Below, in pieces: positions 5,334-48,023 of a DNA stretch of 64,000 bases. The notes beneath the pieces were generated by a model that worked only from the letters and a program-made list of their open reading frames with translations, was not told the origin of the DNA and searched no databases. Positions within the stretch are counted from its first letter, which is position 1. The number at the start of each line of letters is the position of its first letter. The position numbers were made by a program, and so were the translations under genes. The stretch is from positions 62,001 to 126,000 of the forward strand of contig JAAZXY010000001.1 in the NCBI GenBank assembly GCA_014239855.1, given 5' to 3'. This stretch comes from Acidimicrobiales bacterium. GTDB taxonomy: Bacteria > Actinomycetota > Acidimicrobiia > Acidimicrobiales > MedAcidi-G1.

Positions 5334-6301
5334 GACCGGTCCTCTCTATTCTCCGCGGCGGCCAGCGCGGCCTGCACGTGGGCAGGCACTTCGGGTCCCC
5401 GCTGGGTGGTGATCCGCTCGTAGACCTCGGGCCGGCGGTACCGGTCGAAGTCGAAGAGCGTCTCCTTGAAGTTGGCGCACAGGTCCAGATCCGCGGTGGC
5501 CACCACCAACTCGTCGCCCACCGTGGCCGTCACGGCCCGCACCTCGCCCGACGGGGCGATGATGGCGCTCTCCCCCAGCAGGTCGCAGCCCTCCTCGCAA
5601 CCGGCCTTGGCCACGCCGACCACCCACATGCCGTTCTGGTAGGCGCCCGATTGGAGCACCAGGCCGTTGTGGAAGCCCTGCAGCCGGTCCTGATCGGGGT
5701 CGGGGGCGTAGTGGATCGGCGTGTTGTAGCCGATGAGGGCCAGCTCACAGCCCTGCAGGCCGAGCACCCGGTAGGTCTCAGGCCAGCGCCGGTCGTTGCA
5801 GATGGCCATGCCGACCACGCCACCGAACGCGCCGTGGACGTCGAAGCCGTCGCCAGCCTCGAAGTAGTAGCGCTCGAGGTGCTGGAAGGCCCGCCACGGT
5901 TCATGGTCCTCGTGGCCGGGGAGGTGGACCTTGCGGTAGCGACCGACAATGGTGCCGTCGCGTTCGACGAGGATCGCCGTGTTGTAGCGGTGCCCGTCGG
6001 GCGTCAGTTCGGCGTAGCCGAGGTGGAAGCCCACGCCGAGGCGGCGGGCCTCGTCGAACAGGGGCTGCGTCTCGGGGCCGGGCATCTCGGTCTCGTAGAA
6101 CCGGTCGGCCTCGGCCAGGTCGTCGACCCACCACCTCGGAAAGAACGTGGTCAGGGTGAGCTCGGGGAAGACCACCAGGTCACAGCCCGCCTCGGCGCCC
6201 TCACGGAGCAGCACGATGAGGCGCTCGACGACCATCGATCGGGTGTCGGCCAACTGGATGGGACCGACCTGGGCGGCCCCGATGGTGATGGTGCGGGTCA
6301 T
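5330..6301 (-). CDS. Carbon-nitrogen hydrolase (N-carbamoyl amino acid hydrolase / beta-ureidopropionase type)
   Basis: Nitrilase-family E-K-C signatures: VVFPELTLTT, GRYRKVHLPGHE, VGMAICNDRRWPETYR. Confidence 0.88.
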   Translation of the reverse strand: MTRTITIGAAQVGPIQLADTRSMVVERLIVLLREGAEAGCDLVVFPELTLTTFFPRWWVDDLAEADRFYETEMPGPETQPLFDEARRLGVGFHLGYAELTPDGHRYNTAILVERDGTIVGRYRKVHLPGHEDHEPWRAFQHLERYYFEAGDGFDVHGAFGGVVGMAICNDRRWPETYRVLGLQGCELALIGYNTPIHYAPDPDQDRLQGFHNGLVLQSGAYQNGMWVVGVAKAGCEEGCDLLGESAIIAPSGEVRAVTATVGDELVVATADLDLCANFKETLFDFDRYRRPEVYERITTQRGPEVPAHVQAALAAAENREDRS

Positions 6302-7620
6302 CGGTCGGACTCCTCCGAGTAAAGGCCTGCTCTCTGAAGGGTGGCCCCATCCAATGAAAGCCCATCCAATGCGAGCATCGTCTGGAGCAGGACGTCGGCG
6401 CCGGCCACCAGGTCGGCCGGGTCGGTGTGCTCGGCCGGATTGTGGCTGACGCCGTCACGGCTGGGGACGAAGACCATGCCGGTCGGACAGACCCTGGCCA
6501 GCATCTGGGCGTCGTGCCCGGCCCCCGACGGCATGTGCTTCACGGTATGGCCGAGTCGTCGGGCCACGTCGGCCACCGTGTCGACCACCCGGTCATCGAA
6601 GGTCACCGGCTCGAACCGGGCCAGCGTGCGCTCGGTCACCGTCACACCCTCGGCGGCCGCCGTCTGGGCCACGAAACGGGCCAGATCGGCTTCGGCTTCC
6701 TGTAGAAGCGCCTCATCGGTGTTGCGGAGGTCCACCGTCATCGACGCCGAGGCGGCCACCACGTTGACCAGGTTGGGCTCCAGTTCGAGCCGACCCACCG
6801 TGCCCACCTGACGATCTCCACCCTCGGGACCGGCTGCGTTCATACGGACGGCGAGATCCCGGACGTGGGCGGCCACCGCAGCGGCCACGTAGCCCGGATC
6901 GTGGCGTAGTTCCATCGGCGTGGTCCCCGCATGGTTGGACTGACCGGTGATGGTCAGCTCGGTCCACGAGATCCCCTGGACCCCGGTCACCGCTCCGATG
7001 GTGATCCCCTCGGCCTCGAGCACCGGGCCCTGTTCGACGTGCAGCTCCACGAAGGCCCGGGGTGACGGACCGGGACACGGCGAGGTGCCCCGATAGCCGA
7101 TGCGGTCCAGTTCGGCGCCCACGATGGCGCCGTCGATGCCCTCGATGTCGAGCGCCTCCTCGACGGCCATGCCACCCACGTAGACGAGGCTGCCCAGCAT
7201 GTCCGGCGGGAACCGGGCGCCCTCCTCGTCGGTGAAGAAGCCCACGGCCACCGGGTGCTCGGTCTGGACGCCGTTGCGCTCCAGGGTCTCGATGACCTCC
7301 AGGCCGGCCAACACGCCGAGGTTGCCGTCATAGCGGCCACCCGTCCGGACGGTGTCGATGTGGCTGCCGGTCATGGTGGGTGGCCCGTCGGTCCGACCGG
7401 CCCGCATGCCGATCACGTTGCCGATGGCGTCAATGGTGACGTCCAGGCCCAGGTCACGCATCCACGTGACGACCAGGTCGCGGCCGGCCCGGTCCTCGTC
7501 GGTCAGGGCCAGGCGACACGAGCCTCCGCCGTCGATGGGTCCGATGGCCGCCAGGTCCTCGATGCGTCGCAGCAGACGGTCACCGTCGATGCGCAGCCCG
7601 TGGTGAAGTTCGGCGTTCAT
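6298..7620 (-). CDS. M20-family Zn hydrolase (allantoate amidohydrolase / N-carbamoyl-L-amino-acid hydrolase type)
   Basis: TMTGSHIDTVRTGGRYDGNLGVLAGLEVIETLERNG...GFFTDEEGARF...SGAGHDAQMLARVCPTGMVFVPSRDGVSHNPAE; 440 aa. Confidence 0.9.
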   Translation of the reverse strand: MNAELHHGLRIDGDRLLRRIEDLAAIGPIDGGGSCRLALTDEDRAGRDLVVTWMRDLGLDVTIDAIGNVIGMRAGRTDGPPTMTGSHIDTVRTGGRYDGNLGVLAGLEVIETLERNGVQTEHPVAVGFFTDEEGARFPPDMLGSLVYVGGMAVEEALDIEGIDGAIVGAELDRIGYRGTSPCPGPSPRAFVELHVEQGPVLEAEGITIGAVTGVQGISWTELTITGQSNHAGTTPMELRHDPGYVAAAVAAHVRDLAVRMNAAGPEGGDRQVGTVGRLELEPNLVNVVAASASMTVDLRNTDEALLQEAEADLARFVAQTAAAEGVTVTERTLARFEPVTFDDRVVDTVADVARRLGHTVKHMPSGAGHDAQMLARVCPTGMVFVPSRDGVSHNPAEHTDPADLVAGADVLLQTMLALDGLSLDGATLQRAGLYSEESDR

Positions 7621-9932
7621 GCAGCCTCCCCCGATTCCGGATTGGCGACCAGGCAGATGTCCGACGGGCGCACGGGCACCCGGGGCAGGTCCAGGCCGGT
7701 GGCGTCGCGCACCGCGGCGGCCACCGCGGCGGTCGACGAGATGGACGGCGGCTCGCCGATGCCCTTGGCGCCGAACGGGGCACCGGGCTCGGGTTGTTCG
7801 ATGAGGGCGGCCACCTCGAGGGGCGGCATGTCCAGCGCCGTGGGGATCAGGTAGTCGGTGAACGATGCGTTGCGGATGCGCCCGTTCGCGACCTGCACCT
7901 CCTCCATGACGGCCAGGCCCACACCCTGGGCCGCTCCCCCCTCCAACTGGCCGAGGGCCTGCAGCGGATGGAGCACACGGCCCACGTCCTGGGAGGTGGT
8001 CAACTCGACGACCTTGACGAGCCCCAGGTCGGGATCCACGTCGACGATGGCCCGATGGGCGGACACGGCGAACGACACGTGGGCGTCGCCCTGACCGTCA
8101 GCGTCCAACGTCGACGTGGGTGCGTGCCGGTGGACCACATCGGCCTCCACCGGCTCGGCCGTGAGCTCCGCCAGGGAGAGATCCAGGTCCCCGCTGAGCG
8201 ATCGGACCCGACCGTCGACCAGCACGAGGTCGTCGATCGGCAGGCCGTGGGTGGTCGCCAACCCCGCCAGCAACTCCCGGCGAACCGTCTCACAGGCCAA
8301 CTGCACGGCACCGCCGGACATCCAGGTCTGGCGACTGGCCGACGTGGAGCCCGCCGAGCCGATCGACGTCGTCTCCACCGGGGCCAAGACGATCTCGTTC
8401 ACGCCCAGCACCTCGCCGGCGATCTGGCGGGCCAGGGTCACGAATCCCTGACCCACCTCGGCACAGGCACAGGTGATGGTGGCCACCCCGTGGTGCAGCA
8501 CGCACCGTGCGGCGCTCGAGTCGTCGAAGCCCTCGGAGAACATCAGGTTCTTGAAGCCGACGGCCACCGCCTCGCCTCGGACCACGTGTTCGGCGTCCGC
8601 CGTCCGGCCGGCGCCGCCGGGTCGGGCCATGGGCTCGTCGGACCCCACGGCGGCTGACGGATGATCGGCGCACGCCCGGATCACCTCGGCCACCGGCAAC
8701 GTCCCGGTGATGACCTGGCCGGTGGCCAGACGGTCCCCCGGCTCGAGGGCGTTTCGCAGCCGAAGCGCCACCGGATCCATGTCCAGGGCGGCGGCCAGAC
8801 GGTCCATCTGGGCCTCGTGGGCGAAGCAGGTCTGGACGGCGCCGAAGCCCCGCATGGCCCCACAGGGCGGGTTGTCGGTGCGGACCACCACGCCCTCGAT
8901 CTCGACCGATGGGACCATGTACGGGCCCGCCGCGAAACAGGTGGCGTTGGCGATCACCGCACCGCTGGACGATGCGTAGGCCCCGCCGTCCAGCAGCAGG
9001 TGGGCTTCGACGCGCACGAGATCGCCATCGGTCGTGGCGTGGTGCCGATACCACATGCGGGCCGGATGACGATGTACGTGGCCGTGGAAGCTCTCCTCGC
9101 GGCCGTAGGACATCTTCACCGGTCGCCCGGTGCGCAGGGCCAGCAGGCACAGGTGCACGTGGAGGCTGAGGTCCTCGCGGGCACCGAACGCCCCACCGAC
9201 GCCGGCCAGTGTCAGGCGGACCTTCTCGTGGGGAAGGTCGAGGCATGCCGCCACCTGGTCGCGATCCACGTGCAGCCACTGGGTGGCCACGTAGAGGTCG
9301 ACGCCCCCGTCCTCGTCGGGCACGGCCATGCCCGATTCGGGTCCCAGGAAGGCCTGGTCCTGCATGCCCACCTCGTAGGTGCCCTCGACGGACACCAGGT
9401 CGTCGCGCTGGGCAGCGGCCTGGTCGCCGTGGCGAAGGTGGATGCGGCGGATGACGTTGCCGTCGGGATGGATGGGGTCGGCCGTCTCGGCCAGCGCCGG
9501 ATCCACCAGGGGCTCGGTGGGCTGCCAGTCCACGTGGATGGCCGCCAGGGCGCGGCGTGCCGTGTCGGGATGGTCGGCGGCCACCACGGCCACCGGCTCG
9601 CCCTCGTAGCGCACCACGTCGCCGGCCAGCACGGGCTGGTCACGATGCTCGAGTCCGTAGGTGGGGCTCCCGGGCACGTCGGCATGGGTGAGCACGGCAT
9701 GGACCCCGTTCATGGCCAGCGCCGGACTGGTGTCGATGCCACCGATCCGAGCCGCGGCATGCGGCGATCGGAGGGTGGCACCCCACAGCATCCGGTCGTG
9801 GTGGAGGTCGCTCGAGAAGGCGAAGTCACCGGTCACCTTGGGGACGCCATCGGGTCGGGGGGCGTTCTCGCCGATACGGGGTCCGACCGACGTCCCGTCA
9901 TCGGTCTCGGCACCGGTCTCGACCACCGTCAC
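7617..9932 (-). CDS. Xanthine dehydrogenase-family molybdenum-binding subunit (large chain)
   Basis: VGGAFGAREDLSLHVHLCLLALRTGRPVKMSYGREESFHGHVHRHPARMWYRH...CGAMRGFGAVQTCFAHEAQMDRLA; GTG start at 9932 overlaps the previous gene stop (GTGA). Confidence 0.9.
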   Translation of the reverse strand: MTVVETGAETDDGTSVGPRIGENAPRPDGVPKVTGDFAFSSDLHHDRMLWGATLRSPHAAARIGGIDTSPALAMNGVHAVLTHADVPGSPTYGLEHRDQPVLAGDVVRYEGEPVAVVAADHPDTARRALAAIHVDWQPTEPLVDPALAETADPIHPDGNVIRRIHLRHGDQAAAQRDDLVSVEGTYEVGMQDQAFLGPESGMAVPDEDGGVDLYVATQWLHVDRDQVAACLDLPHEKVRLTLAGVGGAFGAREDLSLHVHLCLLALRTGRPVKMSYGREESFHGHVHRHPARMWYRHHATTDGDLVRVEAHLLLDGGAYASSSGAVIANATCFAAGPYMVPSVEIEGVVVRTDNPPCGAMRGFGAVQTCFAHEAQMDRLAAALDMDPVALRLRNALEPGDRLATGQVITGTLPVAEVIRACADHPSAAVGSDEPMARPGGAGRTADAEHVVRGEAVAVGFKNLMFSEGFDDSSAARCVLHHGVATITCACAEVGQGFVTLARQIAGEVLGVNEIVLAPVETTSIGSAGSTSASRQTWMSGGAVQLACETVRRELLAGLATTHGLPIDDLVLVDGRVRSLSGDLDLSLAELTAEPVEADVVHRHAPTSTLDADGQGDAHVSFAVSAHRAIVDVDPDLGLVKVVELTTSQDVGRVLHPLQALGQLEGGAAQGVGLAVMEEVQVANGRIRNASFTDYLIPTALDMPPLEVAALIEQPEPGAPFGAKGIGEPPSISSTAAVAAAVRDATGLDLPRVPVRPSDICLVANPESGEAA

Positions 9933-41615: not shown

Positions 41616-42809
41616 ATGGACTTCGATTTCACCACCGAACAGGAAGCTTTCCGTGATGAGGTCGAGGCCTTCCTGAACGCCAACGACGACCCCGACGTGT
41701 TCGACCCCACCCGGGAGAACATGGCCCAGATCGTCGATACTCCCAAACGCCGGGCCCTCATGAAGAAGATGGGCGAGCAGGGCTGGTTGGGCATCACCTG
41801 GCCGAAGGAGTACGGCGGCCAGGAGGGCGAGGGCGTCTACGAGTACATCCTCAACGAGGCCCTCGCCGGACGGGGTGGCCCCCAGATCGGCAAGGGCGTC
41901 GGCATCATCGGCAAGACCCTCATCGCCCACGGATCCGAATTCCTCAAGGAGGAGTTCCTCCCCAAGATCCTGGCCAACGAGGTGGAGTTCGCCGTCGGCT
42001 ACAGCGAACCGGAGGCCGGCTCGGATGCCGCGGCCATGAAGCTCAAGGCCGTCGAGACCGACGGCGGCTGGACCCTCAACGGCCAGAAGACGTGGACCAC
42101 CTCGGCTCACTTCGCCGAGTGGTACTGGGTGGGCGCCCGCACCAACCCCGACGCCCCCAAGCACTCGGGCATCACCCTCTTCCTGGTGCCCATGGACCAC
42201 CCCGGCATCACCGTGCAGGGCATCTGGACCATGGGCGACGAGCGCACCAACGACGTGTTCTTCGACGACGTGTTCGTTCCCGACGAGTACGTGGTCGGCC
42301 AGCTCGACCACGGCTTCCAGTACATCTCCCAGGCGTTGGACCTCGAGCGGTTCACCATGTTCACCTTCTCCCCGATCAAGCAACGCCTCGACCTGCTGAT
42401 CGATCACGTGCGTTCGGCCCAGCGCGACGGCCAACCACTCAAGGACGATCCGAAGGTGCGTTCGCGCATCGCCCGCCTGGCCACCACCGCCGAGGTGGCC
42501 CGGGGCATGGGCCTGCGGGTCGTCGATGCCTCGGTGAAGGCCGAGGCCAGCGGTGGCGCACCGCCGACCATCGAGTCCTCGGAGTACAAGTTGTTCACCA
42601 CCGAGTTCTCCAAGGTGCTGGCCGACGCCTCGATGGACCTGGGTGGTCCGGGTACGCAGCTGCGGGTCGGCACCGAAGAGGCCCCCATGGCCGGGCGGGC
42701 CGAGTCGACCTACCGCTACACGGTGCTGGACACCATTGGCGGCGGTACCTCCGAGGTCCAGAAGAACATCATCACCCGCCGCGGCCTGGGCCTCCCCAAG
42801 AACTTCTAG
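41616..42809 (+). CDS. Acyl-CoA dehydrogenase
   Basis: MDFDFTTEQEAFRDEVEAFLN...FAVGYSEPEAGSDAAAMKLKAVETDGGWTLNGQKTWTT...GGGTSEVQKNIITRRGLGLPK. Confidence 0.97.
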   Translation: MDFDFTTEQEAFRDEVEAFLNANDDPDVFDPTRENMAQIVDTPKRRALMKKMGEQGWLGITWPKEYGGQEGEGVYEYILNEALAGRGGPQIGKGVGIIGKTLIAHGSEFLKEEFLPKILANEVEFAVGYSEPEAGSDAAAMKLKAVETDGGWTLNGQKTWTTSAHFAEWYWVGARTNPDAPKHSGITLFLVPMDHPGITVQGIWTMGDERTNDVFFDDVFVPDEYVVGQLDHGFQYISQALDLERFTMFTFSPIKQRLDLLIDHVRSAQRDGQPLKDDPKVRSRIARLATTAEVARGMGLRVVDASVKAEASGGAPPTIESSEYKLFTTEFSKVLADASMDLGGPGTQLRVGTEEAPMAGRAESTYRYTVLDTIGGGTSEVQKNIITRRGLGLPKNF

Positions 42810-42829
42810 GGCCCACCCCTTTCAGCAAC

Positions 42830-44002
42830 ATGACGACCGACCGCCGCCCCCTTCTCGACGGGATCACCGTGCTGGACCTCGCCTCAGTGGGGCCCGCGGT
42901 GCGCGCCGCCCGCTGGCTGGCCGACTGGGGCGCCGACGTCATCAAGGTGGGGCCGGTGCCCCGCGATGCCGGCGTGCAGATCACCCCACCGGCCTACGCC
43001 TACAGCGCACACCGGGGCATGCGCCGGGTCCTGCTGGACCTCAAGTCCGACGGCGGACGCGACGCCTTCCTGGATCTGGCGGCCACCGCCGACGTGGTCA
43101 TCGAGAGCTTCCGACCGGGCGTCGTCGACCGTCTGGGCATCGGCTACGAGGCCCTCCGGGCCGTCAATCCCCGCATCGTGCTGTGCTCGACCACCGGCTT
43201 CGGTCAGACCGGACCACGGTCCCAGTGGGCGGGCCACGACCTCAACTACCTGGCCGTGGGCGGCTACCTCCACTGCTCGGGTCGCAGCGGTGACGGTGGC
43301 CCGGCGCTGCCCGGCGCCACGGTGGCCGACAGCGCGGGCGGCGGCCTGCACGCGGTGGCCGCCATCTGCGCCGCCCTGACCGCCCGTTCGACCACCGGCG
43401 AGGGCACCCACCTCGACGTGTCGATCGCCGACGGGGTGCTGTCGCTCATGTCGCTGGCCGTCGACGAGTACCTGGCCAACGGCACCGAACCCGGCCCCCG
43501 TCACGGCCTGCTCACCGGCCGCTACGCCTGGTACGACCTCTACGAGGCGTCGGACGGCGGCTGGCTGGCCGTCGGGGCCATCGAGCCCCGTTTCTTCGTC
43601 AACCTGTGTCGAGGCCTGGGCTGCGACCAGTGGGCCGGGCACCAGTACGACGACGATTCGGTCGACGCCATGCGGGCCGACTTCGCCACCGCCTTCGCCA
43701 CCCGCCCCCGCGACGAGTGGGTGGATCTCCTGGGGCCGGCCGACACATGCGTCACCGCGGTACTCGACGTGCCCGAACTGCTGGCCGACGAACAGTTCCG
43801 GGCCCGGGGCGCCTTCACCGAGGTGACCCACCCGACAGCCGGGACCATTGCCCAGGTGGCCGCCCCGCTGGCCGGCCAGGTCGACGCCGCCGGGCTGCCC
43901 GTCCACGACATGGCCCAGCCGACCACCGACGAGATCCTGACCGCCGCCGGGGTGGACGCCGACCGGCTGGCCTCGCTGCGAGCCGAGGGAGCGATCGCAT
44001 GA
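42830..44002 (+). CDS. CaiB/BaiF-family CoA transferase
   Basis: GITVLDLASVGPAVRAARWLADWGADVIKVGPV...ADVVIESFRPGVVDRLGIGYEALRAVNPRIVLCSTTGFGQTGP. Confidence 0.95.
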   Translation: MTTDRRPLLDGITVLDLASVGPAVRAARWLADWGADVIKVGPVPRDAGVQITPPAYAYSAHRGMRRVLLDLKSDGGRDAFLDLAATADVVIESFRPGVVDRLGIGYEALRAVNPRIVLCSTTGFGQTGPRSQWAGHDLNYLAVGGYLHCSGRSGDGGPALPGATVADSAGGGLHAVAAICAALTARSTTGEGTHLDVSIADGVLSLMSLAVDEYLANGTEPGPRHGLLTGRYAWYDLYEASDGGWLAVGAIEPRFFVNLCRGLGCDQWAGHQYDDDSVDAMRADFATAFATRPRDEWVDLLGPADTCVTAVLDVPELLADEQFRARGAFTEVTHPTAGTIAQVAAPLAGQVDAAGLPVHDMAQPTTDEILTAAGVDADRLASLRAEGAIA

Positions 44003-44553
44003 GCACTGACCCCGTCGTGGAGACGCTTCCCCCGGTTCCCGACGCCGTGACCGATCGCATCGGCCTCGTCCAGTACGAGGAGGAGGGCGGCTTCCCGGTC
44101 GAGCACGGCTACATCTGGACGACGTGCGCCGCCGTCGAGAACGGCAACCCGCTGTTCTGGGAGGACTCGGTGGCCGATGCGCTGACCGACGGTCCCATTG
44201 CCCCCCCGACCATGCTCTCGGTCTGGTTCCGCCCCCACCACTGGTCGCCGGGACGCACCGAACCGGCGGTCCCTCTGCAGGCCCACTTCGACCTGAAGGA
44301 CGACCTCGACCTGCCCGAGGCCATCATCTCGTCGAACACCAACACGTTCCACGATCCGGTCCGAATCGGTGACCGGGTCCGGTCCCGCCAGATCCTCCGG
44401 TCGATCAGCGAACCCAAGACGACCCGGTTGGGCCACGGTCGGTTCTGGACCATCGACGTGGAGTACCTGAACCAGGACGACGCCCTGCTGGGCGTGGAGT
44501 CCTACACGGCCTTCGGCTATCGGCGACCTGATGCGCCCGAGGCGAAGCAGTGA
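43999..44553 (+). CDS. MaoC-like N-terminal (FAS1-type dehydratase/hydratase) protein
   Basis: NPLFWEDSVADALTDGPIAPPTMLSVWFRPHHWSPG...TFHDPVRIGDRVRSRQILRSIS; ATGA overlap with upstream gene. Confidence 0.83.
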   Translation: MSTDPVVETLPPVPDAVTDRIGLVQYEEEGGFPVEHGYIWTTCAAVENGNPLFWEDSVADALTDGPIAPPTMLSVWFRPHHWSPGRTEPAVPLQAHFDLKDDLDLPEAIISSNTNTFHDPVRIGDRVRSRQILRSISEPKTTRLGHGRFWTIDVEYLNQDDALLGVESYTAFGYRRPDAPEAKQ

Positions 44554-45035
44554 GCCGGCCCACGACTCGCCTGCTGCACGGTGACGTGGCGGTCGGCGAC
44601 ACCCTGCCCGGTTTGGGCGTCGACGTGACGGCCACCACGGTGGTGCTCGGCGCGTTGGCTTCCCGGGACTGGCGACCCATGCACCACGACCGGGACTTCG
44701 CCATCAACCGCAACGGCACGCAGGACATCTTCCTCAACACCCCGAACCAGGCCGCCTGGTTCGAGCGCTACGTGACCGACTGGACCGGTCCCACCGGCCG
44801 CCTCGGCCGCATGACCTTCCGCATGAACACCTCGGTGTTCCCCGACGACCACATGGTCTTCTCGGCCACCGTCACCGGCACGTCGGTCGATGACGCCGGC
44901 TGCGGCTGGATCGACCTGGACGTGGCCCTCATGGTGGGCGAGGTGGCCGCCACCACGTGCGCCACCCGGGTGGCCCTCCCCCTCGACGAGAACGACAACC
45001 CCTGGGCACGCCGCGGCGATGCCTGGCGACCATAG
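44550..45035 (+). CDS. MaoC-like acyl dehydratase
   Basis: ALASRDWRPMHHDRDFAINRNGTQDIFLNTPNQAAWFERYVTDWTGPTGRLGRMTFRM; hydratase D-x4-H-type motif region. Confidence 0.8.
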   Translation: MSRPTTRLLHGDVAVGDTLPGLGVDVTATTVVLGALASRDWRPMHHDRDFAINRNGTQDIFLNTPNQAAWFERYVTDWTGPTGRLGRMTFRMNTSVFPDDHMVFSATVTGTSVDDAGCGWIDLDVALMVGEVAATTCATRVALPLDENDNPWARRGDAWRP

Positions 45036-45046
45036 GAGAACCGACC

Positions 45047-46156
45047 GTGGACCTCGCCTTCAGCGACGAACAGGACATGCTGCGAGAAGCCGTGCGCGGC
45101 CTGTGCGCCGATGCCGCGGACTCCGTCCGGGGCATGGAGAACGACCCCAAGGGCTTCGATGACGCCTTCTGGCAGGGCCTGGCGGCCATGGGCCTGACCG
45201 GGCTGATGACGTCGGAGGCCCTCGGCGGTTCGGGCATGGGGCTGTTGGACGCCGTGGTGGTCTACGAGGAAATGGGCCGCAGCCTCGTGCCGTCACCCCA
45301 CCTGGCCTCGTCGGTGGTGGCCGCCGGCGTGCTGGCCGCTGCCGGATCGGACGCCCAGCAGACCGAATGGCTTCCCCGGATGGCCGCCGGCGAGGCCGTG
45401 CTGTCGGTGGCCTGGCTGGAGCCCGACAACAGTTCGGGACCCACCGGCGTGCAGTTGACGGCACGGGCTGCAGACGGGGGCTTCGTCCTGTCCGGCGTGA
45501 AGCGCCACGTGCCCTACGCCTCATCGGCCGACCGGCTGGTGGTCCTGGCTCGAATCGGCGAGGCCATCGACCTGTTCCTGGTGGACCCCACGGCCGACGG
45601 CGTGACCCTGACCCTCCAGCCGACGGTGGCCGGCGACACCCAGTACCGGGTCGACCTGGACGGCGTCCGGGTGACGGCCGCCGACCGGATCGGCGACGCC
45701 GGATCCGGCTGGGCCACCTGGTCGACGGTCATGACCGACGCCATGGTGCTGGTGGCCGCCCAGGCGGTGGGCGCCGCAGAGGCCACCCACGCCCTGACCA
45801 CCGAGTACGCCAAGGAGCGCCACCAGTTCGGCAAGCCCATCGGCTCGTTCCAGTCCATCAGCCACTACCTGGCCGACGGTGTCACGGCCATCGACGGCGC
45901 CCGGGTACTGGTCCACCGGGCCGCCTGGACCCGCGACGAAGGGCGCGACGTCGCCTCGTTGGCTCCCATGGCCAAGCTGTTCGCCACCCAGACCTGTCGA
46001 GACGTGACCGGGGTGGCCATCCAGGTGCACGGCGGGATGGGCTTCACCGTGGAGTGCGACGCCCAGCTGTACTTCCGCCGGGCCAAGTCGTGGCAGCTCA
46101 ACTGGTTCGACGACGACCACCTCGAGGACCTCATCGCCGCTGCCGTCCTGGACTGA
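45047..46156 (+). CDS. Acyl-CoA dehydrogenase (short type)
   Basis: VDLAFSDEQDMLREAVRGLCADAA...ALTTEYAKERHQFGKPIGSFQSISHYLAD...VAIQVHGGMGFTVECDAQLYFRRAKS; SD AGGAGAA before GTG. Confidence 0.95.
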   Translation: MDLAFSDEQDMLREAVRGLCADAADSVRGMENDPKGFDDAFWQGLAAMGLTGLMTSEALGGSGMGLLDAVVVYEEMGRSLVPSPHLASSVVAAGVLAAAGSDAQQTEWLPRMAAGEAVLSVAWLEPDNSSGPTGVQLTARAADGGFVLSGVKRHVPYASSADRLVVLARIGEAIDLFLVDPTADGVTLTLQPTVAGDTQYRVDLDGVRVTAADRIGDAGSGWATWSTVMTDAMVLVAAQAVGAAEATHALTTEYAKERHQFGKPIGSFQSISHYLADGVTAIDGARVLVHRAAWTRDEGRDVASLAPMAKLFATQTCRDVTGVAIQVHGGMGFTVECDAQLYFRRAKSWQLNWFDDDHLEDLIAAAVLD

Positions 46157-46283: not shown

Positions 46284-48023
46284 ATGGGAACGTCGTGGAT
46301 CATCGAGGGTTCGGTTGATGACCGTTGGCCGATCAACACCCGGGGCAACGTGGGCGAGGTATTCCCCGAGGTCCTGACCCCGCTGTCCTACCGGCTGGGA
46401 GTGATCGCCGCCGAGAAGGCGTGGCGTGAGGCCTACGCCGAGCTCGGGGTGGCCAGCAAGGGGGACTTCACCAGCGAGGACCCGATCATCATCGGCCTCT
46501 ACGGGGGCTACGCCTACCTCAACCTCTCGTACCTGCGAATCCTGGGCGTCCGGGCACCGGGCTCGTCACCGGAGGCCATCGACGTGTCCTTCTTCGGCGA
46601 GGGCAACCCGCCTCCCTACAAGCCCCACAAGGGTGACAAGAGCCTGCGGTCCACGCTTCGAATCCTGAAGTCCGTAATGGGCGCCATTGGCACCAAGGCC
46701 ATGCCGCCAATGGTGGCCGACAGCTTCGCCCGGGCCGACACCCACTGGAACGCCTGCCCGTCGCTGGACGCCTCCGACGAAGATCTGCTGGCCTACCTCC
46801 ACGCGTTTCCGTCGGCCTTCGGTCCGGCCTTCCACAACCACATGCTCTCGACGGCACTGGCGTCGATCGTGGCCGGGGTGCTGGCCGATGCCTGTGCGGC
46901 TGCCGACGAACCGGGATTGGTCACCCACCTCATCGGGTCGGCCGGCGATGTGAAGTCAGCCGAATATGCCCGCGACCTCTACACCATCGCCCGAGCAGTC
47001 CGCGACCAGCCAACGGTCGTTGCTGCGTTTGACGCCGGCGTGGACGGGTTGGTGGATCGACTGGCCAGCCAGAGCGGCGACCCGGATGTCGCGAACTTCA
47101 GCGACCGGTTCGCCGCCTTCGTGGCCGACCATGGCCACCGGGGTCCCAACGACTGGGAGATCTCGTCGCGCAACTGGGAGAACACACCGGAGATGGCACT
47201 GGTGGCCATCGACCGGATGCGCCTGGCCGACCACGATCTGGACCCGGCGGCCCGACTGGCCGACGATGACGCCCGCCGGGCGGCAGCCATTGCCGTGGTG
47301 CGCCCGCACGTCAAGGGGCTTGACCGCATGAACTTCGACAAGGCACTGATCGCCACCCGATGGTGGTCCCAGGCCCGCGAGGCGACCCGGGATCGGGCCA
47401 TCCGCATCGGCGCCCCCACCAAGAAGGTGTACCGCGAACTGGTCCGCAGGGCTGCCGAACGGGGCGGCAACCCCGACCCCGTGCGGATCGCCCTCCTGGA
47501 TCCGTTGGACGAACTTCCCGCCTACCTGGCCGATCCGACGGCGTTCACCGACGTCCTGGCCGAGCGGGGAGCCCTGTTCGACCGGTACGCGGCCGTCGAG
47601 CCCCGCTTCTTCATCGCCAGCCAGGACGAGGTACCGACCATCGAGGAACTGGAGGCCGACCAGGCCGCCCGGGCCGCCGAGGCCGTCGCCACACCGGGCG
47701 ACGTGCTGACCGGAGCCGCCGGTTGCCAGGGTGTGGCCCGCGGGCGGGCCCGCATCGTGATGGACCCGGCCGATGCCATCGATCTGGAGCCGGGCGAGGT
47801 TCTGGTGGCCCCCATCACCGATCCGTCGTGGACCCCGCTGTTCCTCCCGTCGGCCGCCGTGGTGGTCGACGTGGGGGCGCTCATGAGCCACGCGGTGATC
47901 GTGGCCCGCGAGTTGGGTATCCCGTGCGTGGTGGCCGTCGACGGCGCCACCCGACGGATCCCCGACGGGGCGCTGGTCGAGGTGGACGGCACCGCCGGAA
48001 CGGTCACCGTCCTCGAGGGCTGA
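46284..48023 (+). CDS. PEP-utilizing enzyme mobile (phosphohistidine) domain protein without an ATP-grasp domain
   Basis: C-term GAAGCQGVARGRARIVMDPADAIDLEPGEVLVAPITDPSWTPLFLPSAAVVVDVGALMSHAVIVARELGIPCVVAVDGATRRIPDGALVEVDGTAGTVTVL; N-term MGTSWIIEGSVDDRWPINTRGNVGEVFPEVLTPLSY. Confidence 0.88.
   Translation: MGTSWIIEGSVDDRWPINTRGNVGEVFPEVLTPLSYRLGVIAAEKAWREAYAELGVASKGDFTSEDPIIIGLYGGYAYLNLSYLRILGVRAPGSSPEAIDVSFFGEGNPPPYKPHKGDKSLRSTLRILKSVMGAIGTKAMPPMVADSFARADTHWNACPSLDASDEDLLAYLHAFPSAFGPAFHNHMLSTALASIVAGVLADACAAADEPGLVTHLIGSAGDVKSAEYARDLYTIARAVRDQPTVVAAFDAGVDGLVDRLASQSGDPDVANFSDRFAAFVADHGHRGPNDWEISSRNWENTPEMALVAIDRMRLADHDLDPAARLADDDARRAAAIAVVRPHVKGLDRMNFDKALIATRWWSQAREATRDRAIRIGAPTKKVYRELVRRAAERGGNPDPVRIALLDPLDELPAYLADPTAFTDVLAERGALFDRYAAVEPRFFIASQDEVPTIEELEADQAARAAEAVATPGDVLTGAAGCQGVARGRARIVMDPADAIDLEPGEVLVAPITDPSWTPLFLPSAAVVVDVGALMSHAVIVARELGIPCVVAVDGATRRIPDGALVEVDGTAGTVTVLEG

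Follow-up and report, generated by a model that had tools for sequence, protein, structure and literature searches.

The question raised by this locus is what charges a protein that ends in a phosphohistidine swivel domain and lacks an ATP-grasp domain, and on which kind of compound it might act. The window, the whole stretch of 64,000 nucleotides that was analysed, comes from a marine Acidimicrobiales genome (G000). Its forward strand carries at 46284..48023, with the ATG at 46284, the gene for an orphan substrate-and-swivel protein of 579 residues (P0001), recognised by homology and by Pfam. The gene is a real one, because homologues occur in 16 of the 17 genomes of the genus (2-6 matches each) and orthologues with 61-87% identity are found in other genera. 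The family is paralogous and centred on the Acidimicrobiia; the window genome has three members, at C56 (the window), C82 and C128.

The only Pfam domain found in P0001 is PF00391 (PEP-utilizers mobile domain) at residues 502-572 (E 1.9e-22), within a swivel domain that spans residues 474-578 (47703..48017, forward strand). Pfam gave no match to PPDK_N, and neither PEP-utilizers_C nor PPDK_N, which accompany the swivel in PEP synthase and PPDK, is present. Among NCBIfam models, RedH, PRK06241, RPH and PRK05865 (Rv2047c-like) aligned, all far below cut-off and always on the middle and C-terminal parts of the models. A sequence-only reading had described a C-terminal swivel with no ATP-grasp domain and no split ATP-grasp gene adjacent in the window; both observations were confirmed.

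That reading had also held that the N-terminal 450 or so residues are not an ATP-grasp domain, and here Pfam, the structural model and the fold search all agree. A profile built from 22 homologues matched residues 436-867 of RPH-Lm with E 1.5e-50. The AlphaFold2 model of P0001 (mean pLDDT 87, pTM 0.88) is helical through residue 470, and the RPH-Lm structures (5fbt/5fbu) ranked first when it was searched with Foldseek; for 5fbt, E was 3.7e-18 and TM 0.70 normalised to the query, over about 600 columns. PPDK and pyruvate kinase followed, with coverage of little beyond the swivel domain. On this profile match, the helical model and the Foldseek ranking, residues 1-470 or so (46284..47693, forward strand) are assigned to the RIF-binding type of helical substrate domain seen in RPH and HpeH, which is a known kind of domain and not a new fold. 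The structure prediction of residues 1-450 likewise revealed no cryptic ATP-grasp fold; this candidate was ruled out, the model being helical and the fold search returning the RIF-binding domain of RPH.

The substrate domain contains the conserved motifs TRGN-GE (residues 19-25) and G-RGPN-W-W (residues 284-298). In the profile alignment Arg365-Glu366 of P0001 correspond to Arg666-Glu667 of RPH-Lm, a pair indispensable for the second phosphotransfer (PMC4844700), and Arg369 corresponds to Lys670; the codons of these putative substrate-side phosphotransfer residues lie at 47376..47390 on the forward strand. Among 115 homologues R365 is found in 115, E366 in 114, and K or R at position 369 in 114. 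The catalytic swivel histidine, His536 (codon 47889..47891, forward strand), lies in VVVDVGALMSHAVIVARELGIPC. It is invariant in 39/39 sequences gathered by plain homology, for which the swivel motif was not used, and in all 115 of the overall set, 76 of which came partly via a pattern that itself contains His536; a loss across orthologues, as that reading had contemplated, was not seen. The match to RPH thus covers the RIF-binding and swivel domains over the whole length of P0001, with equivalents of R666, E667 and K670 (PMC4844700). Unlike RPH, P0001 has no fused N-terminal ATP-grasp, and specificity for RIF is not expected.

The closest parallel in architecture is a known kind of half-enzyme. 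HpeH is a separate substrate-and-swivel subunit of the kinase HpeHI and needs the ATP-grasp subunit HpeI (PMC12167813). Like HpeH, CreH and PpsA, P0001 combines a RIF-binding-type substrate domain with a C-terminal swivel, lacks ATP-grasp and is of similar size; it keeps the catalytic swivel histidine and the substrate-site Arg-Glu, and its context is catabolic. The earlier comparison with phenylphosphate synthase was borne out in this respect, PpsA being such a half-enzyme of substrate domain and swivel. From sequence and model, P0001 is predicted to be the substrate-and-carrier half of an enzyme that phosphorylates a small molecule. In contrast to HpeHI, CreHI and PpsAB, the genome and genus of P0001 have no HpeI-type ATP-grasp partner, and the family co-occurs with the C-terminal half of PPDK and with a further domain, here called X. 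The swivel motif also differs: T/SxxGGxxxH in HpeH and its relatives, and VxxG[AG]xxSH in the P0001 family, where the motif starts with V in 113/115 sequences.

An orphan ATP-grasp protein elsewhere in the genome had been proposed as the partner. It was sought with the PF01326 (PPDK_N) profile, for which a control search was positive in 13/14 well-known genomes. No match was found in the whole window genome (83% complete) or in the 16 other genomes of the genus, of which several are 95-98% complete, and this candidate was rejected for the 17 genomes in total. Of 118 sampled genomes of the order, 29 have the P0001 family and 89 do not; PPDK_N was absent from 13/29 and 12/89, respectively (p=0.001), so that the family occurs preferentially in genomes without the ATP-grasp domain. 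The remaining 16 of the 29 family-positive genomes retain a PPDK_N gene, mostly as full-length PPDK.

Besides the P0001 family, the sole strong swivel protein in the window genome is a protein of 521 residues (G000:C44), made up of a swivel and a PEP domain and encoded at L058:8407-9969 on the minus strand. Its Pfam domains are PF00391 and PF02896 only, it matches TIGR01828 (PPDK) with E 7e-144, and the swivel histidine and the RTEH, GTNDLTQ and CGEHGG motifs are intact. By these sequence criteria it is the C-terminal half of a PPDK that lacks PPDK_N. A first impression of PTS Enzyme I was rejected: the protein is a PPDK half that lacks the N-terminal domain by which EI binds HPr, and a search of the genome gave no HPr. 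A fifth swivel-like match in this genome is weak (26.7 bits, in a 193-aa frame; G000:C67:36593-36805, L005). The C-half gene begins 40 bp after an upstream gene, which we take by eye to be GlyRS and which shares 70% identity with the gene next to full-length PPDK in G047. Because of this short gap and the shared neighbour, the ATP-grasp part of the PPDK seems, from the gene arrangement, to have been lost in place.

C-halves were found in 16/17 genomes of the genus from swivel match and frame length, seven of the sixteen being checked by sequence. The PPDK motifs (swivel His, RTEH, NDLTQ, CGEH) are intact in the other C-halves examined, with few exceptions; in G351 the C-half runs into the end of its contig. 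In a tree the C-halves of G019 and G036 nest among the full-length PPDKs of the group to which they belong (support 100/96), and PPDK C-halves therefore arose at least twice. Both halves can also persist as separate genes: in G355 the ATP half of PPDK (496 aa) and the PEP half (534 aa) are encoded on different contigs (L185, L186).

The C-half and the P0001 family tend to occur together. Among the 118 genomes of the order the family is present in 13/14 of those with a C-half and 16/104 of the others (p=1.2e-8); the genomes are related, and collapsing them to taxonomic families, which corrects only partly for kinship, gives 6/7 and 13/54 (p=0.003). Two genomes depart from a strict trio of C-half, X and family: G012, which is 94% complete, has a C-half and X and no family member was detected in it, and G048 has a C-half with neither X nor a strong family member. 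In the window genome the C-half gene is not adjacent to any family member.

Domain X, of about 190 residues, is also associated with the family. In the window genome it is a separate protein of 206 residues (C70, L178:5954-6571), with no Pfam match and no significant NCBIfam match. In its model (pLDDT 96), X opens with a winged-helix-like region, followed by a helical part that has no structural match and contains invariant histidines in DSYHTVWFELHEDLL; Foldseek returned only weak winged-helix matches, which cover the first 70 residues or so. X occurs in 27/29 family-positive and 24/89 family-negative genomes of the order sample (p=1.6e-10), or 19/19 and 16/42 when collapsed to taxonomic families (p=2e-6). 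It is located at the end of PPDK ATP halves near family members in L079, L106, L140, L146 and L150, and is recognised partly in L095; in L149 and G261 it has its own gene, which adjoins the ATP half. In G352 it is fused to a PPDK C-half, giving a protein of 814 residues with swivel, PEP domain and X (L188:1511-3952, G352:C16). Its gene is divergent from that of a family member in G293, G355 and G327. At L089 (Ilumatobacteraceae) a gene for a PEP half with X (375-2015) precedes a family member by about 90 bp, a direct link between the PEP half and the family; the first 480 bases of L089 look chimeric (a MazG piece), may be misassembled and are left out of the argument.

Truncated PPDKs of the opposite kind, with ATP-grasp and swivel and no PEP domain, lie within 6 kb of a family member at 7/80 family loci. 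Two of them, scored against NCBIfam PRK05878, exceed the cut-off or fall just above it. From the domain content described for VadK, these ATP halves are taken to be of its kind. The Mycobacterium tuberculosis VadK (Rv1127c) is a truncated PPDK of ATP-grasp and swivel that autophosphorylates His422 from ATP (PMC13400623). The window genus differs in having the opposite PPDK half, of PEP domain and swivel. On one strand, the family gene is separated from the ATP half by 2 bp in L095, 20 bp in L106 and 90 bp in L146, and in L140 two family genes in tandem precede the ATP half with a 5 bp gap, again on one strand. In L106 the family gene occupies 5571-7316 and the gene for the ATP half with X 7337-9535. 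In L079 the ATP half is two genes away from a 65% identical orthologue of P0001. VadK-type ATP halves fused to X form operons with family members in the Dehalococcoidia.

Fusions, operons and co-occurrence together suggest that P0001 may be powered by a broken-off PPDK half, in this organism the PEP-using one. To the fuller reading, in which P0001 is the acceptor subunit, of the RPH/HpeH type, of a multi-component small-molecule kinase whose donor is a separately encoded PPDK half, we give about even credence. Of the partner foreseen in the sequence-only reading, the general idea of separate encoding gains support, a PPDK half plus domain-X protein appearing to fit, and its ATP-grasp type does not hold in the genus. 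The sole candidate for a PPDK-half donor found in the window genome is G000:C44. Its swivel histidine would be phosphorylated by PEP, and the phosphoryl group would then pass to His536 of P0001, either directly or by a visit of His536 to the PEP site. The C-halves keep their own swivel, and a His-to-His step therefore has to be assumed. The domain-X protein might act as a docking or regulatory partner. The P0001 swivel would then turn to the substrate domain, where Arg365-Glu366 could help transfer the phosphoryl group to a hydroxyl group on an intermediate of catabolism. The PPDK half would thus provide donor site and carrier histidine, the family acceptor site and carrier histidine, and together they would make a complete kinase, charged by ATP where ATP halves are present and by PEP in the genus of the window. 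The C-half is not required everywhere, since PPDK_N is retained in 16/29 family-positive genomes. The proposed donor would resemble PTS Enzyme I and HPr in passing PEP-derived phosphate from a swivel histidine to a separate histidine protein; unlike Enzyme I, it is a PPDK (TIGR01828) with no EI N-terminal domain, in a genome with no HPr.

A donor might be dispensable altogether. HpeH alone catalyses a slow exchange of phosphate between phenols and can move it from 4-phosphoacetophenone to acetovanillone (PMC12167813), and a P0001 that likewise shuttled phosphate between small molecules via His536, with no upstream kinase, would suit a genome that has no PF01326 match. We consider this improbable, as the HpeH exchange runs at only 2.7 nmol/min/mg and such a transphosphorylase would leave the fusions and co-occurrence with PPDK halves and X unexplained.

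The association could instead be indirect, the PPDK halves and X regulating central metabolism and the P0001 family merely sharing catabolic niches with them. VadK, besides autophosphorylating at His422, co-purifies with PrpC/PrpD, and methylcitrate-cycle enzymes have been proposed as its partners in a regulation of that cycle, in a report where Rv2047c is unmentioned (PMC13400623); the neighbours of the family are also often catabolic genes. This explanation is made rather unlikely by operons that join family members directly to X-fused halves of the ATP or the PEP type, and by iron TnSeq in M. tuberculosis, where rv1127c (ppdK/vadK) and rv2047c both become essential with mycobactin and share a closely similar profile (NE/ES/GD/NE/NE/ES and NE/ES/ES/NE/NE/GD, respectively; PMC7058343). 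Little probability is likewise left for an ordinary two-component ATP kinase of the HpeHI type, with an ATP-grasp subunit missing from the assemblies or too divergent for PF01326. The HpeI/CreI/PpsB pattern does exist (PMC12167813), the genomes are drafts, and G053 has a stand-alone PPDK_N adjoining a swivel protein of 590 residues. Against this, PF01326 was found in 0/17 genomes of the genus and is absent from 13/29 family-positive genomes, with positive controls, and the family swivel motif departs from T/SxxGGxxxH (V first in 113/115). Loss of phosphoryl function, with P0001 kept for binding or scaffolding, would accommodate the altered motif and the lack of a donor of known type and is very improbable, as His536, R365 and E366 are essentially invariant down to about 33% identity.

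If a PPDK half does charge P0001, the arrangement may be wider than one enzyme. Somewhat short of even credence is given to a modular, PTS-like phosphorelay in which split PPDK halves and the winged-helix X, with the PEP half in marine Acidimicrobiia and the ATP half or VadK elsewhere, would charge paralogous, substrate-specific swivel proteins for different small molecules, orphans of the Rv2047c type being clients of VadK. Rv2047c resembles P0001 in having a substrate-and-swivel region and no ATP-grasp, as judged from the PRK05865 alignment, which is far below cut-off; it differs in carrying an extra epimerase domain. The half-enzyme architecture and VadK are already known; a link between PPDK halves, X and the P0001 family, or a PEP-charged version, was not found in the literature searched. 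Such a relay would account for the many 'PEP-utilising mobile domain' proteins that lack ATP-grasp and for the targets that VadK and other truncated PPDKs phosphorylate, and it would be a PTS-like use of PEP (or ATP) in which one shared donor serves the phosphorylation of many small molecules. For the M. tuberculosis pair it predicts that Rv1127c charges Rv2047c, which is directly testable.

The genes upstream of P0001 give limited help with the substrate. At 41616..46156 on the forward strand Pfam identifies an acyl-CoA dehydrogenase, a CaiB-type CoA transferase, FAS1-like and MaoC-like dehydratases and a second acyl-CoA dehydrogenase. Their order is kept in L071/L072 and not in L069/L070, and orthologues of P0001 with 61-72% identity have different neighbours. 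The link to this cluster drawn in the initial reading proved to be genus-level only, and the cluster was dropped as functional context; because its conservation stops at the genus, a CoA-pathway acid is not put forward as substrate. Across 80 family loci, raw counts of neighbours named by sequence recognition, with no background comparison and with some gene calls from a codon-usage caller that were Pfam-checked only in part, are 23 SDR-like, 17 P450-like, 13 enoyl-CoA hydratase-like, 9 acyl-CoA dehydrogenase-like and 9 CaiB-like. Because of these gene types, the likeliest substrate would be a hydroxylated hydrophobic compound under degradation.

Several other arrangements were seen around family members. 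A Y_phosphatase3 gene (PF13350), a possible phosphatase counterpart, lies 40-60 bp upstream of one paralogue (L057:463-1266, L062:8069-8875). Another paralogue adjoins a serC-looking gene (phosphoserine aminotransferase) in L056, L060, L063 and L073, a conserved arrangement, and in two of these loci a luciferase-like monooxygenase is also present. Several members of the genus have a distant swivel protein of 565 residues (L061:2095-3789, G001:C41) that matches the family only from residue 327 on. At L067:9089-11580 an SDR gene and a family gene meet end to start, which recalls the fused epimerase and swivel of Rv2047c.
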